Below, in pieces: positions 798 through 8,737 of a DNA stretch of 8,939 nucleotides. Position numbers and translations under genes: made by a program. Where the stretch lies: the NCBI GenBank assembly GCA_014381035.1, contig JACMIS010000739.1, positions 1-8,939 on the forward strand, read 5' to 3'. The stretch is from Armatimonadota bacterium (GTDB lineage: Bacteria > Armatimonadota > Armatimonadia > Armatimonadales > Armatimonadaceae). Below the pieces are notes generated by a model that made no database searches, had not been told where the DNA came from, and worked only from the letters and a program-made list of their open reading frames with translations. How positions within the stretch are numbered: position 1 is the first letter of the stretch; each line of letters starts with the position of its first letter.

Positions 798-1709
798 TCA
801 TAAATCGTCCCAATCCGTGCGTGGTCTCCCGCCGATGACCCGCTTTGGACCGGTGGCTATCACAAACGGTGGGATTACCGCCTGACGGATCGCGAGACGC
901 ACGACCTTGGCGCGGGAGCCATCGAACCGCTTTTTGGCGACCGCGACGATGGCGTTGTATTGTGCCATCGGGAACTGCACCGTGAACCGGTGTCCGCGTT
1001 GGCAGAACGGCTGGTATGCCTCCATGGCAGGTCCGTCGCCTTTTAACGCTTTTGCCACCGCCTCGCGAATGATTTCCGAGACGTGGTACTTGCTGGTTTT
1101 ACCGGGGTGCGCCTCCCGGTAGCGACGCTTCAGTTCCCAGATCGCTTCCATCGTCGGGCGGTCGATGCCGAACGTGATGTGTTTGGACGGCCCGAGCAGT
1201 TTCGCCGCGCGTCCCACGAAACTCGGTTCGCCGGTCGGGGCAGGTCCCCAGTAGTCGGCTTCGACCTTGTTCCACCGTCGGGCGCGATTAAGTGCCCCCT
1301 GAACCGCAACGCAGTCGGTACACCGGGTAGTGGTTGCGCCCCCCTGCTTCCGTAGTCCGCGTGGCTTGCCGCACCGGGTGCACCGTTTTTGGGCGACTCG
1401 CGCGACGGTGCGGGCTTGTTGCCACTCACGGTCGTATTTCGAGCAGGCGGGGCACAGCGTCTCAAATCCCGTGCCGCCTTTCTTTTGCTCGCTCGGTTTT
1501 CCGCACCGACCGCAAAGACCGGCGTTAACATGCGCCTCGCGTCGCGATTTTGTCTGGTTCCGCGCTCTCTCGGCACAACGGGCGCATTGGTTGCGCGTCG
1601 CCCCACCCCGCGCCGGTGCTTCCCGGAGCCGCCCGCACGTGTAGCAATATCCGGCGGCGGCACGTTCGGCACGTTTTTTTGCTATAGCCAGTGACTTCTC
1701 CGTAGCCAT
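798..1709 (-). CDS. Triple zinc-ribbon protein with two C-terminal ribbon-helix-helix-like units
   Basis: This 303-residue protein is probably cytoplasmic and nucleic-acid binding. It carries three CxxC-x16-CxxC units at C22/C25/C42/C45, C66/C69/C86/C89 and C110/C113/C130/C133. Each unit starts exactly 44 residues after the last, and units 2 and 3 share a CGKP turn. Each should bind one Zn2+. After a linker (about 140-176), residues 177-222 and 240-278 each look like strand-helix-helix: HITFGID then two helices ending EIIREAVAKAL, and RFTVQFP then two helices ending VVRLAIRQAV. This is the ribbon-helix-helix pattern. A tandem pair in one chain would make a pseudo-dimer. The start ATG is preceded by TAAAAT with a 6-nt gap and no Shine-Dalgarno, suggesting a leaderless mRNA. 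The gene is divergent from the GNAT gene. The Zn ribbons are clear; the RHH assignment is inferred. A transcriptional regulator is the best guess. Confidence 0.75.
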   Translation of the reverse strand: MATEKSLAIAKKRAERAAAGYCYTCGRLREAPARGGATRNQCARCAERARNQTKSRREAHVNAGLCGRCGKPSEQKKGGTGFETLCPACSKYDREWQQARTVARVAQKRCTRCGKPRGLRKQGGATTTRCTDCVAVQGALNRARRWNKVEADYWGPAPTGEPSFVGRAAKLLGPSKHITFGIDRPTMEAIWELKRRYREAHPGKTSKYHVSEIIREAVAKALKGDGPAMEAYQPFCQRGHRFTVQFPMAQYNAIVAVAKKRFDGSRAKVVRLAIRQAVIPPFVIATGPKRVIGGRPRTDWDDL

Positions 1710-1767: not shown

Positions 1768-1807
1768 CAGGCATTTCTCATGAGTTTTATCCCGTGAGAA
1801 ACGCCTG
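1768..1807. promoter_or_regulatory. Imperfect inverted repeat in divergent promoter region (candidate operator)
   Basis: The left arm CAGGCATTTCTCA (1768-1780) pairs with TGAGAAACGCCTG (1795-1807) at 12 of 13 positions around a 14-nt centre. The right arm covers the place where the -35 of the GNAT promoter should lie (about 1799-1804, given the -10 at 1822-1827). A protein bound here would be well placed to control the GNAT gene, and perhaps the divergent zinc-ribbon/RHH gene whose start is 58 bp away. The dyad is visible; its role as an operator is inferred. Confidence 0.45.
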
Positions 1808-2499: not shown

Positions 2500-3126
2500 A
2501 TGAAACCACGTGGCAGTAACACAACCTCTCACCGAAGAGCATTGATCGTAGCCTGTTTTCTGGCGATAATGGCAGTCGTTGCCGGAGTACGTGCCCAGAA
2601 CACGGCTTCCCTGTCGCCGCAGGATGCCGCGTTGCTCGCGCTTGCCCGCGAAGCCGTGCGCGGTGCCGTCACCGGTTCCTCGCCAATTGCTTTACCGGTT
2701 GCTGCGCTCGGTGACCTGCCTTCGCAGGGCGTGTTTGTTACCATCGAGCGGAACGGAAACGTGGTCGGGTGCCGGGGGACGCTCCAGCCGCGCTTCGCCA
2801 ATTTACGAACCGAGGTGCAGACCGCCGCACGCTCTGCCGCGACCACCGACCCGCGTTACCGTCCGCTGACGCCCCCCGATCTGTCCCGATTTCTGGTGAC
2901 AGTCACGGTCATCGAACGGCTGGAGCCTATCGGGCGGGCGGAGGCACTGACACTGACTTCCGCCGACGGGATCGCGTTACAAGCCGGGAACAACACCGGC
3001 GTGGTCCTGCCCTACGAAGGGCGCGACCCGGCGACCCGGCTGCGCTGGGCATATCAGAAAGCGGGCGTTCCCAACAACTCCTCCTGCCGCCTCTGGCGCG
3101 TCGTCGCCCGACGGTTTCGCGGCTGA
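2500..3126 (+). CDS. Secreted AMMECR1-domain protein
   Basis: This 208-residue protein starts with a classical Sec signal peptide: basic HRR at 11-13, hydrophobic core at 14-30 (ALIVACFLAIMAVVAGV), and likely cleavage after VRA (residue 32). The rest is an AMMECR1 domain: GVFVTIERNGNVVGCRGTL (77-95) corresponds to the family's G-V-F-V-T with the conserved R/G-G-C-x-G turn. It is followed by the helix with AARSAATTDPRYRPLTPPDL (109-128), the strand FLVTVTVIERLEPI (131-144), GVVLPYEGRD (167-176) and a C-terminal W183...W199 region. Family members are mostly cytoplasmic and include human AMMECR1 and the archaeal and AmmeMemoRadiSam-associated proteins; their biochemical role is unsettled. No Memo or radical-SAM partner gene is present here. 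It is the first gene of a probable operon, with 32 nt to the alpha-2-macroglobulin gene. Domain assignment is firm; the exported role is unknown. Confidence 0.88.
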   Translation: MKPRGSNTTSHRRALIVACFLAIMAVVAGVRAQNTASLSPQDAALLALAREAVRGAVTGSSPIALPVAALGDLPSQGVFVTIERNGNVVGCRGTLQPRFANLRTEVQTAARSAATTDPRYRPLTPPDLSRFLVTVTVIERLEPIGRAEALTLTSADGIALQAGNNTGVVLPYEGRDPATRLRWAYQKAGVPNNSSCRLWRVVARRFRG

Positions 3127-3158: not shown

Positions 3159-6100
3159 ATGTGGAACTTTAAAAAAGCAAAGAATCTTGCGCGACCGACG
3201 GCGGTTGTTTTCCTCGCGGCGATGATTCTGGCACTGGGCGCATTTTTCCGGAGCGGCGTCGCGGCAGACCCGGCACCGGCAACCGACCCGCCGAACGTTC
3301 TGGTGCCGACCCGTCCGGTGACCGAGATACGCCTGTCCACGAAACGAAATGTGGCTCCCGGTCCCCACATTCGCATGTATGTCAACACGCGGAATCTGGC
3401 GCGGATCGAGGTTTCCGTCTACCGGATGGACACCGCGAAATGGTTGCGTATTCGGGAGGAGAGCGATAACAACGGCGAGTTTAAGCCAATGCCGGAAGTG
3501 TTACCCGGCAAGCCGGTCCGCGTTTTCCCGGTGACCGTCGGCGACCCAAAGCTGAAATCGTCGCCGCAACAACCGGATATTTACCGTAGCAAGCAGTTCA
3601 ACCTTCCCGTGCTTCCGCCGGGCGCGTATCTTCTGGTGGCGAGCGGCGGCGGGGAGAAAGCCTGGTCGGTCGTGAATATCACGAACCTTGCCGTGGTGCT
3701 CAAACGGGCACCGGGAACCCTCCTGACCTGGGTGACAGACCACGCGAGCGGGGTACCCATCGCCGGGGCGACGGTGACCGTGTGGGACCGTGCCGCGAAA
3801 AAGACCGTTTCCGAGGGGCGGACCGATAAAGATGGAATCTATCGGGCGGGGGCGCGTCCGGACGGCTCGCAGACCGTGATCGTGGCGCGGAACGTGCCGG
3901 GCAGGCAGTCCGATCTCGCCGGATTGCCGCTCCCCCTTTCCGACCCCGATAACCGACTGGTCAGTCATCTGCAAACCGACCGACCGGTGTATCGCCCCGG
4001 CGCGACCGTGTCGTACCGGGCGATCCTGCGCCGGACGAAAGGCACGGGCTACATCGCCGAGGCGAACGCTTCCGTGACCGCCGAAGTCCGTGACAGTCGC
4101 GACAATGTCCAGCAACAAACCAAGGAGACTACCAGTCCGCTGGGAACGGTCGCAGGATCGTTTTCGATCCCGGCACAGGGCGCACTCGGGCCGTATTCGC
4201 TGGTGCTGACCACCGGCGACGGGCAGCGGGTGTACGCGACATTCACTGTCGCCGAGTATCGTAAACCGGACTTTCTGGCGACGGTCACGCCGGAAAAGAA
4301 GCGGTACCTGTCCGGCGAGACCGGGAAGTTTGCTCTTCAAACCAATTACTACTTCGGTGCGCCACTCCCCGGTGCCACAGTGCGATACGTGATCCGGCGC
4401 AGTGCAAGCCCGTATTACGGCGCGTTCGGGGGCGGCGATCCCGCCGAAACCGCCTGGTTCGCCAGCGGCGACGGCAACCTGTACGCGCGTGATACCTACG
4501 CCGCCGATGACGTGGTCGCCGACAACACCATAACCACCGACGCCGAAGGACGCGCCAGCATTTCGTTCCCGACGCGCACGGATGTCGGAGACTCCGCGTA
4601 TTCGATCTCCTGCACCGTCACCGACGGACAGCGGCGCGAAGTGACGGCGAGTGGTTCCGTGCCGGTCTACGGCGCAACGGTGCGACTCGGCATCCGGACA
4701 AAGGTCTACACCGCACCGCTCAACGGGATCGTGCCGGTGGAACTGCGCCTCGCCGACCTGGACGGTCGCCCGGTCGCAGGCAGAGTGACGCTCCTCACAC
4801 GGCAACAGATATACGATGAGAAGACGCAAGCGTCGTCCTGGCGCACGCTCAGCCAGTCTGCCGCCGTGGTCCCGGCGAGCGGCAAGGCGACCACCAACGT
4901 TCCCGCCGCGAGAGAGGGCGAGGTGGAGATCCGCGCCACCGTCACTGATTCCGCGAAACGAAAAGCGGTCGCCGTTTCCTCGTTCTATGTCACCGCGCCT
5001 GATACACCGACCCCGAAGGAGCGACCGGAACCGACCGTGCGCCTCCGGCTGGGCGCGTCGTCGTACCAGCCCGGCGACACCGTCACCGTGTTTTTGACCG
5101 CGAACACGCCGGAACGCTCCGTGCTACTGACGGTCGAGGGCAACGCGCTGTTCGCCTACAAAGTCGTTCCGCCGGGAAAGACCGGCTTCACCTGGAAAGT
5201 ACCCGCCACCGCCGGGATGGCACCCAACGCGCACGTTTCGGCGGCGCAGTGGGCAGCGATGAACGGTGATCCGGCGAACAAGACACGCGCCGTCCGCCTC
5301 CTGACCGCAACCGTTCCGCTCCCGGTCCCCGACCGTTCCCGACGGCTCGACCTATCCGTAACGCCGGACCGACCCGATCATCGCCCCGGCGACCGCGTGA
5401 TTTACACGGTCCGGGCACGCGACGGGAAAACAGGGAAGCCGGTCGGCGGAGCCGAGGTCGCGCTGGCGGTGATCGACGAGGCGATCTTCGCCGTCCGCCC
5501 CGACGCAACGCCGGATATATACGGGACGTTCTGGGGGTTCCGCGAAAACCACACGCACACCGCCGCGTCCGCGCCGGAAGAGGTCAGCGGCGGCGCGTAT
5601 CAGAACGCCGAGCCGACCGGCGTCGCCCCGGTGCGGCAGCGGTTCCTCGACACGGCGTTCTGGAACGCCCGCCTCGTCACCGGTCCCGACGGTACCGCCG
5701 TCGCCACCGTGGAACTGCCCGGTAACCTGACCGCGTGGCGGGCGACCGCGCTCGGCGTCACGGATTCGACGGCGGTCGGACGTGCCTTATCCCGCGTGAA
5801 TTCATCGCGCCCGGTCATGTTGCGCCTCGCCACGCCGCGTCAGTTCGTCCAGGGCGACCGACTCACCCTGATCGGCACCGTCAGCAACCGGACCGAGCAA
5901 AAGCGGACGTTCAAAGTCACCCTGACCGCGACCGGTGTACAGCCCGCACCGGGCGAGAATGCCATGAAGTCCGTGACCATCCCGGCAAAAGGCGAGGCGA
6001 CGGTGGAATGGCGCGTGTCGGCGGACAGCATCCCCGTGCCGGACGGTCGGGCGACATTGGAAGGAACGCTGATCGCCGCCGACCTCGAGCCGGGCGAAAC

Positions 6101-7739
6101 CCTTACCGAACTGTCCGACCGCGTTCGTGTCAGCGTGCCGGTGCGACCACGCGGCGTCGCCGCGACCGTGCGGGTCGGCGGTGCGGTTTCCGGTGATGCC
6201 GAAACATCGCTTTCCCTGGATCTGCCCGCCGGACGCATCGAACCGGCGACCGAACTGCGAGTCACGGTGCGCGGGGGAGCGGGTGCCACGGCGCGGTCTG
6301 ATGCGAACCGACTGTACAAAAATAGCGACTACGGCACGCTTGGGGCGGCAGACCTGCTGTTAGTCGCGGCGACTCCCGGTGCACCGCCCGCGGACCCGGC
6401 GGCGGTGCGCGACGCCCTCGCGCTACTATCACGCGGTCAAACCCCGCAAGGCGCGTGGGGTTGGTGGGACGACGCCCCCGCCGACGCCCGCATCACGGCG
6501 CGGGTACTACGGGCACTATCCGCTCTGAAACGATCCCCGCAAGTGCTTCCTGCCAGTGTGCCGTTCCCCGAAAATCTCCTGAAACGCGGCGTCAGCGGGG
6601 GGAATAGTCTGTACCGCGAGATCGGATTATGGGAGGATCGCGCCTATCTCGCCCCGGCACTCGCCGCACTATCTGCGGAAGCCGCGCCCTATCTCGCGGA
6701 GGTGGCGGACCGCAACGCCGGTACCCTGTCCCCGGCGGCGACACTCGTGCTTGCGAAAGGGCTATTGGAAGCCGGAAATCGGGACCGGGCGCGGAAACTG
6801 ACCCGCGCGATACTCGCGCAGGGCGTTACAGGACCGGAGACCATCTATATTCCCGCAGGAGAGCGACCGGGACAACGGGCGGGAGTGCTCGAAACCACCG
6901 CCCGCGCTCTGGAAACGCTGGTCGCGCTCGGCGAGGACGCGCCGACGCAAACGAAACTCGCCCGCTGGCTCCTGCTGCCGTCCGATGGCGAAGGCAGACC
7001 GGAGGCGACCTCGTCCGAGGAAGCGGACATCGTTCGTGCCCTGCTTCTCTACAGCCGTGCACAGGGGAACAATACGCAAGATGGCTCCGTGATGCCGTCC
7101 GCCGACAGTTACACGTTGACCGTCAATGGCGTCGCCGTTCCGTGGGGGAAACGTGCCCCCGGCACCGAAAATCTCGCGCCACTCGCGGCATCCGTACCCC
7201 GTGACTTGCTCAAGGACGGCGCGAACGCGATCAGGTTGAAACGTCTGGAGAGCGCCATGGGGGAAGCGTTCATCTCCGCCGAAGCTCTGGTCTACCGCAC
7301 TCAGGAAGCCGAGACCGCCGCCGGGATGCGCGTCCTGCGCCGGTTCGAGTCGCAGAACGAGTACGGCGTCTGGGGCGAAGTCCTGCCCGACACCCGCCTG
7401 CGTCCCGGATCGCCGGTACGTGTCACCGTGGTGGTCTGGCCCAACGAAACGGCGGACGCTCTGAAGATCATCGAGCCGCTTCCGGCAGGGTTTGAGTTCG
7501 TGGATTCCGAGCGTGGTGGGAACGCCCGCGAGGAAGTGCGCGACGGTGCCCTGCTCCATTATTTGCCCGTGACCAGCTCCGAGCCGGTAACATTCCGCTA
7601 CTACCTGCGTTCCGAGTCGGAAGGGACGCTGATGGCACTGCCCGCGACCGGCGAGTTGATCCGACGCCCGGCGATCCGCGGCGGTAGCGCGGCGCAGGTG
7701 CTGGATGTTCGCGACACCCCAAAGGAGAAAACACCATGA
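3159..7739 (+). CDS. Alpha-2-macroglobulin family protein lacking the thioester (MagD/YfaS-like)
   Basis: The protein has 1526 residues, within the usual size of bacterial alpha-2-macroglobulins. The start ATG is chosen because a signal peptide follows at once (basic KKAK, hydrophobic 13-30, cleavage near VAA at 34-36); the frame stays open upstream only inside the AMMECR1 gene. Repeated macroglobulin beta-domains are marked by Y/R-x-P-G-x-x-V turns at 274-286, 635-645, 738-750, 897-904 and 1412-1425. VIDEAIFAVRPD (771-782), then a flexible bait-like stretch (about 795-826), then RFLDTAFWNARLVTGPDG and LPGNLTAWRATALG (828-866) form the family signature. An alpha-toroid like the thioester domain spans about 1058-1310 (QGAWGWWDDAPADARITARV). 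At the CxEQ position the sequence reads Y1058-G-T-L-G-A, so no thioester can form; the only Cys in the protein is C485. It is likely periplasmic or surface-located, trapping or blocking proteases without covalent capture, or structural. Confidence 0.93.
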   Translation: MWNFKKAKNLARPTAVVFLAAMILALGAFFRSGVAADPAPATDPPNVLVPTRPVTEIRLSTKRNVAPGPHIRMYVNTRNLARIEVSVYRMDTAKWLRIREESDNNGEFKPMPEVLPGKPVRVFPVTVGDPKLKSSPQQPDIYRSKQFNLPVLPPGAYLLVASGGGEKAWSVVNITNLAVVLKRAPGTLLTWVTDHASGVPIAGATVTVWDRAAKKTVSEGRTDKDGIYRAGARPDGSQTVIVARNVPGRQSDLAGLPLPLSDPDNRLVSHLQTDRPVYRPGATVSYRAILRRTKGTGYIAEANASVTAEVRDSRDNVQQQTKETTSPLGTVAGSFSIPAQGALGPYSLVLTTGDGQRVYATFTVAEYRKPDFLATVTPEKKRYLSGETGKFALQTNYYFGAPLPGATVRYVIRRSASPYYGAFGGGDPAETAWFASGDGNLYARDTYAADDVVADNTITTDAEGRASISFPTRTDVGDSAYSISCTVTDGQRREVTASGSVPVYGATVRLGIRTKVYTAPLNGIVPVELRLADLDGRPVAGRVTLLTRQQIYDEKTQASSWRTLSQSAAVVPASGKATTNVPAAREGEVEIRATVTDSAKRKAVAVSSFYVTAPDTPTPKERPEPTVRLRLGASSYQPGDTVTVFLTANTPERSVLLTVEGNALFAYKVVPPGKTGFTWKVPATAGMAPNAHVSAAQWAAMNGDPANKTRAVRLLTATVPLPVPDRSRRLDLSVTPDRPDHRPGDRVIYTVRARDGKTGKPVGGAEVALAVIDEAIFAVRPDATPDIYGTFWGFRENHTHTAASAPEEVSGGAYQNAEPTGVAPVRQRFLDTAFWNARLVTGPDGTAVATVELPGNLTAWRATALGVTDSTAVGRALSRVNSSRPVMLRLATPRQFVQGDRLTLIGTVSNRTEQKRTFKVTLTATGVQPAPGENAMKSVTIPAKGEATVEWRVSADSIPVPDGRATLEGTLIAADLEPGETLTELSDRVRVSVPVRPRGVAATVRVGGAVSGDAETSLSLDLPAGRIEPATELRVTVRGGAGATARSDANRLYKNSDYGTLGAADLLLVAATPGAPPADPAAVRDALALLSRGQTPQGAWGWWDDAPADARITARVLRALSALKRSPQVLPASVPFPENLLKRGVSGGNSLYREIGLWEDRAYLAPALAALSAEAAPYLAEVADRNAGTLSPAATLVLAKGLLEAGNRDRARKLTRAILAQGVTGPETIYIPAGERPGQRAGVLETTARALETLVALGEDAPTQTKLARWLLLPSDGEGRPEATSSEEADIVRALLLYSRAQGNNTQDGSVMPSADSYTLTVNGVAVPWGKRAPGTENLAPLAASVPRDLLKDGANAIRLKRLESAMGEAFISAEALVYRTQEAETAAGMRVLRRFESQNEYGVWGEVLPDTRLRPGSPVRVTVVVWPNETADALKIIEPLPAGFEFVDSERGGNAREEVRDGALLHYLPVTSSEPVTFRYYLRSESEGTLMALPATGELIRRPAIRGGSAAQVLDVRDTPKEKTP
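7723..7727 (+). promoter_or_regulatory. Strong Shine-Dalgarno (AGGAG) inside the end of the A2M gene
   Basis: AGGAG lies 8 nt before the ATG at 7736, and the start codon overlaps the A2M stop as ATGA (7736-7739). This fixes the start of the last gene and implies translational coupling. It contrasts with the leaderless-looking starts elsewhere in the window. Confidence 0.85.
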
Positions 7740-8737
7740 AGCCGCCAACAGGTCCGGTCCGCGTTTCCGGTCCCGGTGACCGCGTCGCGCCCTTCACTCT
7801 GCTTCCCTTTGGTGGCACCCGCCCGCAAACCTGGCAACCGGGGCAGGTTTCCGTGCTGTCGTTCTGCGCCCTCTGGTGCGATACATGGCGCGAGCAAAGT
7901 CGCCGCCTTCTCGCCATCCAGCAACACTTGAGCGGACTGCCGATACGCTACCGAACGATCAGCGTGGACGGACGCTGGGCGGAACGATTCCCGAGCGGTT
8001 CCGCGGAGGAAAGTGTTCTGCTCGATTCCGGCGGCGAGGTCAGCGCGAGTCTGGGGCTTCGCGCCGTCCCCTGGACCGTGGTGATAGACGCGCAGGGAGT
8101 GATTGACTGGACGCGTCAGGGGATCATCCGTACCGACGAACTGGAGTCCCGATTGCGCCGCCTCGCTACCGAACGCCCCCCGCTCGCGTCCGACTCGTCC
8201 GGCGACATCTACCTGACGTTCGACGATTTCCCGACGCTTCCTGCGCCGGACACCAACCACTCACCGGACGAACTCCTCCTCGACCTTCTGCGTAAGCACA
8301 ATACCCATGCGACCTTTTTCTGCATCGCGGAACACCTAACCCACCGAACCGGCGCAAGTCTCGCCCGCCGCGCCGCCCGCGAAGGGCACCGCCTGCAAAT
8401 GCATTCCTGGGACCACGACGCGAGCCGCCCCAGCCTTTCCCGCTCTGCAAGCCTCCTGCAAGAGATCACGGGCATACGCCCCACCCTCTACCGCCCCCCC
8501 GGCAGCACCGAGTTGCGCACCGCGGATGGCACTGCCCCAGCCTCGCCCCGCCGCCCGGTCGTCCCGACCTACGACCATTCCCGCCCCGGTCCGCGAGAGA
8601 TCACACGCCGCGTCCTGTTCGCGACCCGCCCTGGCGCGGTAATCGCCCTCCACGCGGGCGTCGCCGACACCCGCGCCGCACTCCCCGACATTCTCGCCGG
8701 TCTACGCAATCGTGGCTTCCAATTCGCTGTGCTTTGA
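7736..8737 (+). CDS. Thioredoxin/TlpA-like domain fused to NodB polysaccharide deacetylase
   Basis: The protein has 333 residues and two domains. Residues 15-145 look like a redoxin: FTLLPFGG, then VSVLSFCALWCDTWREQSR (38-56), where thioredoxins have WCxxC, and later AVPWTVVID (110-118) with the cis-Pro P112 followed by the usual strand. Only C48 of the pair remains (W51 replaces the second Cys; C44 lies just before), so normal disulfide exchange is doubtful. Residues 157-333 are a NodB/CE4 domain: YLTFDDFP (base D163, metal ligand D164), HSWDH (H223, H227), YRPPGS (R253), YDH (280-281) and ALHAG (H306). All five motifs are present but R253 to H306 is short. Predicted activity is metal-dependent deacetylation of an N-acetylated glycan. 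No signal peptide is evident, odd for such an enzyme. Coupled to the A2M gene by ATGA and a strong Shine-Dalgarno. Confidence 0.85.
   Translation: MKPPTGPVRVSGPGDRVAPFTLLPFGGTRPQTWQPGQVSVLSFCALWCDTWREQSRRLLAIQQHLSGLPIRYRTISVDGRWAERFPSGSAEESVLLDSGGEVSASLGLRAVPWTVVIDAQGVIDWTRQGIIRTDELESRLRRLATERPPLASDSSGDIYLTFDDFPTLPAPDTNHSPDELLLDLLRKHNTHATFFCIAEHLTHRTGASLARRAAREGHRLQMHSWDHDASRPSLSRSASLLQEITGIRPTLYRPPGSTELRTADGTAPASPRRPVVPTYDHSRPGPREITRRVLFATRPGAVIALHAGVADTRAALPDILAGLRNRGFQFAVL

Follow-up and report, generated by a model that had tools for sequence, protein, structure and literature searches.

An Armatimonadota protein joining three putative zinc ribbons to a predicted tandem ribbon-helix-helix pair: a probable DNA-binding regulator from a very small family

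We wanted to know what is encoded by one gene in 8,939 nucleotides of Armatimonadota DNA (the whole analysed stretch, hereafter the window), whose product was described as three zinc ribbons followed by two units resembling ribbon-helix-helix (RHH) DNA-binding folds. The initial annotation gave its coordinates correctly and did not give the strand. The open reading frame of 303 amino acids lies on the minus strand, with its ATG at 1709 and its stop at 798-800.

798..1709, minus strand: ribbon-array/tandem-RHH gene (open reading frame; relative P0002; dN/dS from comparison with the broken L001 copy)

The gene was compared with two relatives. P0002 is a protein of 302 amino acids, 86% identical to the window protein. 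A search of genome contigs found one locus, L001, from an Armatimonadota MAG, which carries a broken copy. Between the window gene and this copy there were 27, 22 and 58 differences at codon positions 1, 2 and 3, respectively, and dN/dS was 0.28 overall, 0.34 in the ribbons and 0.20 in the RHH part (measured over 237 codons in two segments without gaps, with one stop codon excluded). Since the L001 copy is decayed, purifying constraint before the decay may have exceeded the measured one. From the 86% relative and the pattern of codon positions and dN/dS, the gene looks real and under selection. We found no promoter-like site in 740-1950.

The N-terminal part contains 12 cysteines, at residues 22/25/42/45, 66/69/86/89 and 110/113/130/133, and one extra cysteine is present at 236. 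These positions confirm that CxxC-x16-CxxC occurs three times at an exact period of 44 residues. When residues 1-150 were shuffled, at least six CxxC motifs appeared in 3 of 200,000 shuffles, with equal spacing not required. Compared in pairs, the repeats have 11, 12 and 15 of their 44 residues in common.

1560..1661, minus strand: zinc ribbon 1, residues 17-50, Cys 22/25/42/45 (cysteine pattern)
1428..1529, minus strand: zinc ribbon 2, residues 61-94, Cys 66/69/86/89 (cysteine pattern)
1296..1397, minus strand: zinc ribbon 3, residues 105-138, Cys 110/113/130/133 (cysteine pattern)
1188..1259, minus strand: linker, residues 151-174 (modelled with low confidence in the full-length protein)

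The protein scored below the Pfam cut-offs for double zinc ribbons (DZR_2, 14.3 against 27 bits; DZR, 11.9 against 27.3 bits), and it has the paired CxxC motifs that characterize DZR and DZR_2, with three pairs and 12 cysteines. Judged by this pattern, the three pairs would bind zinc.

The two RHH-like units had been placed at residues 177-222 and 240-278. A first model, of the full-length protein (pLDDT 60, pTM 0.35), contained the four helices and lacked the two RHH strands. The model of residues 164-292 (pLDDT 73, pTM 0.65) showed strand-helix-helix twice, at 175-223 and 241-278, which agrees with the earlier placement within a few residues. Its elements are strand 175-181, helices 184-200 and 210-223, strand 241-247 and helices 248-261 and 266-278; the two strands are of at least 3 residues.

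1041..1187, minus strand: RHH unit 1, residues 175-223, with strand 175-181 followed by helices 184-200 and 210-223, which a long loop separates (model; weak in sequence)
873..992, minus strand: RHH unit 2, residues 240-279, with strand 241-247 followed by helices 248-261 and 266-278 (model and sequence)

Using Foldseek, we searched the 164-292 model against the PDB. The ten best matches were chains of the F relaxosome, which we read here as TraY, a two-in-one RHH protein; none reached E <= 0.001. The best structural matches are thus tandem RHH proteins. The earlier proposal that the RHH pair forms a pseudo-dimer in one chain is supported, as a prediction, by this moderately confident model and by the tandem-RHH best matches.

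The two units differed in sequence tests. The window protein scored 16.3 bits against the Pfam RHH_1 cut-off of 20.5 bits. We built a local RHH profile from 22 RHH_1 matches (E <= 1e-4) found in 26 genomes of the same phylum, none of whose 22 frames contained CxxC, and scored it on eight family members. The results are given below as unit 2 bits (shuffles of 500 reaching the score), followed by unit 1 bits (shuffles).

Window protein: 14.9 (0); 5.2 (1)
P0002: 12.3 (0); 3.8 (3)
P0003: 7.8 (0); 2.6 (39)
P0004: 11.5 (0); -2.0 (477)
P0005: 1.6 (24); 2.2 (7)
L008: 8.5 (1); -0.2 (260)
L009: 3.6 (3); -0.3 (202)
L018: 2.8 (2); 0.2 (217)

In hhalign, unit 2 matched the RHH profile at 94% over 35 columns. 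For unit 1, the match to this profile was 12.7% and covered the last helix (14 columns), whereas its match to unit 2 was 21.8% and covered 14 columns located at the strand; each of these scores was reached by 0 of 300 column shuffles. Further, the family profile A3 matched, through its unit 2, a short open reading frame in G034 (E 1.0e-4), and this frame passes the RHH_1 cut-off with 25.9 bits. Because of these results, we assign unit 2 to RHH by its sequence, and unit 1 by model and position, as a predicted RHH with a longer inter-helix loop.

The core residues of the strands of units 1 and 2 are I/F/I and F/V/F in both the window protein and P0002. The outward residues, H/T/G and R/T/Q, are identical in these two proteins. 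In both units the strand thereby alternates between core and outward residues, as in Arc. The outward positions differ in the six other members, which may reflect either target choice or drift.

Since strand-helix-helix appears twice in the model and TraY gave the best PDB matches, we read the product as most likely a DNA-binding protein of the RHH type that is monomeric, with a pseudo-dimer in its single chain and zinc ribbons at its N-terminus. Its two RHH units would fold against each other, and the strands of both would pair into a two-stranded ribbon entering the major groove. Because both units of one chain would fold together, one polypeptide would do the work of two Arc or CopG chains. 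The basic N-terminal ribbons, each followed by a predicted helix, would most likely provide further contacts to nucleic acid next to the RHH site, or else interact with a partner. The computations establish the array of cysteines, the predicted tandem RHH fold, the core common to full-length members with differing numbers of ribbons, and the very narrow distribution. We infer zinc binding, DNA binding, regulation and targets alike, and we consider it fairly probable that this is a sequence-specific DNA-binding protein, presumably a transcriptional regulator of its own gene, nearby genes or both.

It is unlikely, in our judgement, that the protein is instead an architectural or nucleic-acid-packaging factor of DNA or RNA, one that would have no defined operators and would bind broadly through its ribbons and basic helices. 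The predicted pI is strongly basic (10.4), the number of ribbons varies between 1 and 3, ribbon arrays free of RHH occur in viral contigs and in P0006, and the variable groove-facing residues could reflect drift. However, the groove-facing residues of the window protein and P0002 are identical, and, in the accessible parts of the papers on relatives of known structure, the RHH pseudo-dimer reads sequence (AvtR, PMC5569661; TraY, PMC12117103).

We then turn from the single protein to its family. A search of approximately 5.8 billion proteins with the window protein returned itself and P0002, and a search with alignment A2 found five proteins in all (the window protein, P0002, P0003, P0004 and P0005). 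No model of Pfam, NCBIfam or PHROG claims the window protein. The initial annotation had suggested a new regulator family; the family part of this holds, as no library model claims the protein, while the regulator part is still presumptive.

The halves were searched separately in 291 genomes of the phylum, scoring the best 14-15 first-look candidates per genome. With the tandem-RHH profile A4, five places passed E < 1e-20, and they belong to four genomes (G001:C552, G016:C21, G016:C84, G017:C725 and G018:C330), and ribbons lie upstream in 5 of 5. Four of these places are rows of A4; therefore, the independent result is that no ribbonless tandem-RHH locus was found at that strength. Among the best 15 or fewer candidates per genome, there were no further tandem-RHH loci at E < 1e-20, either with ribbons or with none. 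The ribbon profile A7 gave four places in two genomes (E <= 1e-4), all of them family loci and two of them rows of A7 itself, and it missed C725 and C330.

Three ribbons are present in the window protein, P0002 and G001:C552 (broken, with one cysteine of ribbon 2 lost), two in G016:C84 and G017:C725 (the second ribbon of the latter is without its last cysteine), and one in G016:C21, P0004 and P0005. G018:C330 has one ribbon with three of four cysteines, and its frame continues to the contig end. G001:C880 is a shortened copy, in which two ribbons are joined to the final part of unit 2. Of the two copies detected in the draft MAG G001, one thus has a stop and lost stretches and the other is shortened, so the gene may be dispensable there; these changes may also come from errors of MAG assembly. 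The family is very small, its ribbons vary from one to three, and the tandem RHH is constant in full-length members.

The surroundings of the gene bear on what it might regulate. It converges with an open reading frame at 384-752, for which there was no Pfam match, and diverges from a GNAT acetyltransferase gene (1889-2338) across 179 bp. An inverted repeat lies in this interval.

1768..1807, no strand assigned: inverted repeat, 13-nt arms (1768-1780 and 1795-1807), 12 of 13 paired, 14 nt between them (shuffles and folding)

The repeat was equalled in 4 of 500 shuffles and folds at -25.8 kcal/mol (z = -5.6), and it is a candidate operator or leader hairpin. We compared the upstream DNA of six family loci and obtained no alignment.

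RHH antitoxins with GNAT toxins are a known type of toxin-antitoxin pair, and a GNAT gene adjoins ours. Nevertheless, the window protein is almost certainly not the antitoxin of such a pair: the two genes are divergent and 179 bp apart, with no operon, the window GNAT had no PADLOC match at E <= 0.001, and 0 of 10 neighbours scanned at other family loci were GNAT.

Farther along the window, plus-strand positions 2500-3126 encode an AMMECR1-domain protein, with an N-terminal signal sequence by eye, ahead of an alpha-2-macroglobulin-like gene (3159-7739). The stop of the latter is overlapped by the start of 7736-8737 (plus strand), whose product has a polysaccharide deacetylase domain (Pfam, 63 bits) and a sub-threshold N-terminal AhpC-TSA/redoxin match. 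It is perhaps a thioredoxin-like/deacetylase fusion.

Other family loci raised the possibility that members are dedicated regulators or accessory factors of antiviral defence operons, one paralogue per operon, like a restriction controller protein. The member at G016:C21 lies 271 bp upstream of cas3 and in line with it; this cas3 belongs to a type I-C cassette that includes a CRISPR array (Cas3, Csd1 and Cas7, with nine repeats before the contig ends). At G016:C84, a restriction enzyme of the BPTD_3080 family (907 bits against a cut-off of 800) is encoded in line with the member and 89 bp upstream of it, and this enzyme is preceded by a type III-like methyltransferase. The shortened member at G001:C880 has a Fic gene 38 bp downstream (PADLOC SoFic, 1.7e-26). 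Further, three exact 16-bp tandem repeats (L068:7545-7592) occupy positions -5 to -52 relative to the start codon of the member beside the CRISPR cassette. However, G016 contained no other exact copy of this 16-bp repeat, and 5 places matched it with two mismatches, against 0 such places for the reversed pattern.

These repeats lie between the MurB stop and the start codon of the member, and each copy contains a Shine-Dalgarno-like AGGAAAGGA. Separately, palindromic ACGACATTTGTCGT-type repeats lie at L072:1119-1170, between a penicillinase-repressor gene and the shortened family member.

The remaining loci and the controls argue against the defence reading. Scans of six window proteins with Pfam and of two with PADLOC revealed no defence gene, and inspection by eye showed none at G001:C552. 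An O-antigen ligase and a GH4 gene precede the members at C330 and C725, and beside these members the contigs of G018 and G017 end. On a generous count, 3 of 7 family loci have a defence-type gene as an in-line neighbour, compared with 2 of 22 for the control RHH loci (one-sided p = 0.075; p = 0.14 against the 16 controls with an in-line neighbour; p = 0.24 against the 22 without the Fic case), a comparison that was chosen post hoc, after the data had been seen. For the controls, 20 neighbours were scanned at E <= 1e-8 in flanks of approximately 1.5 kb. The criteria were uneven, as Cas genes were named by Pfam and NCBIfam, GH4 and O-antigen genes by Pfam alone, and C552 was judged by eye; the C84 restriction enzyme (PADLOC E 2.3e-8) falls outside the control limit of 1e-8, and its preceding methyltransferase passes (1.9e-170). 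Set against the controls, the defence association is a lead only, and a dedicated role in defence operons seems rather unlikely. We also regard it as unlikely that the family consists of lineage-restricted one-chain RHH regulators, each with its own ribbon number and base-reading residues, which were recruited beside operons for defence by type I-C CRISPR-Cas, restriction-modification or Fic and control these operons.

If the reading as a pseudo-dimeric regulator is true, the family would be a natural case of a tandem-RHH core joined to a modular ribbon array of varying length. It would allow a test of whether ribbons alter the affinity, site length or partners of a constant DNA-reading core, and it offers a handle on regulators of a little-studied phylum.

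Tandem RHH monomers were few among the known cases that we met, namely TraY, AvtR, DndE and VirC2. TraY of the F plasmid carries both RHH units in one polypeptide, as does the window protein, with which it shares about 9% identity. The window ribbons fall outside the match, and to our knowledge TraY has no zinc ribbons. No relaxase or relaxosome partner genes were seen among the six window proteins scanned with Pfam (the window is 8.9 kb). According to the accessible part of its paper, TraY binds DNA at specific sites (PMC12117103). AvtR of Acidianus filamentous virus 6 resembles the window protein in its two tandem RHH motifs, which are joined by a linker; it recognises sequence sites, is a monomer on DNA and represses its own gene (PMC5569661, a figure legend of which swaps the labels AvtR and SvtR). 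It is a protein of 11.9 kDa, and the accessible part of that paper mentions no zinc ribbons. DndE, another tandem RHH precedent, acts in DNA phosphorothioate systems, and the accessible text on it mentions no ribbon array.

The ribbons have relatives of their own. The viral contigs L013, L014 and L015 and the protein P0006 (428 amino acids, seven CxxC pairs) contain the same GxCxxC...CxxC module with basic linkers. We found no RHH match in the four viral open reading frames scanned or, by eye, in P0006. These arrays have two to seven modules.

RHH and zinc ribbons also occur in one protein elsewhere. A recurrent family of the same phylum (L050, L051, L052, L054, L056, L058 and L063) has an N-terminal RHH and then two CxxC motifs, and its proteins had no Pfam match above cut-off. 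Profile A4 picks up their RHH through its unit 2, with per-genome E values of 7.5e-4 to 0.01; single matches are weak, since 291 genomes were searched. Unlike the window protein, they have one RHH, with the ribbon after it and no tandem. The haloarchaeal VNG0195H likewise combines RHH_1 and a double zinc ribbon (PMC7439475); in the accessible part of that source, its single RHH is N-terminal and its ribbons are C-terminal, whereas in the window protein the order is reversed and the RHH doubled. Together, the single-RHH/CxxC proteins of the phylum and VNG0195H suggest that RHH and zinc ribbons were paired more than once. The combination, which the initial annotation did not recognise, thus has a precedent as far as RHH plus zinc ribbon goes; in the open-licence literature, which covers few subscription journals, we found no description of a ribbon array followed by a tandem RHH. 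In summary, each half of the window protein has precedents, and their joining is a new arrangement of known building blocks.
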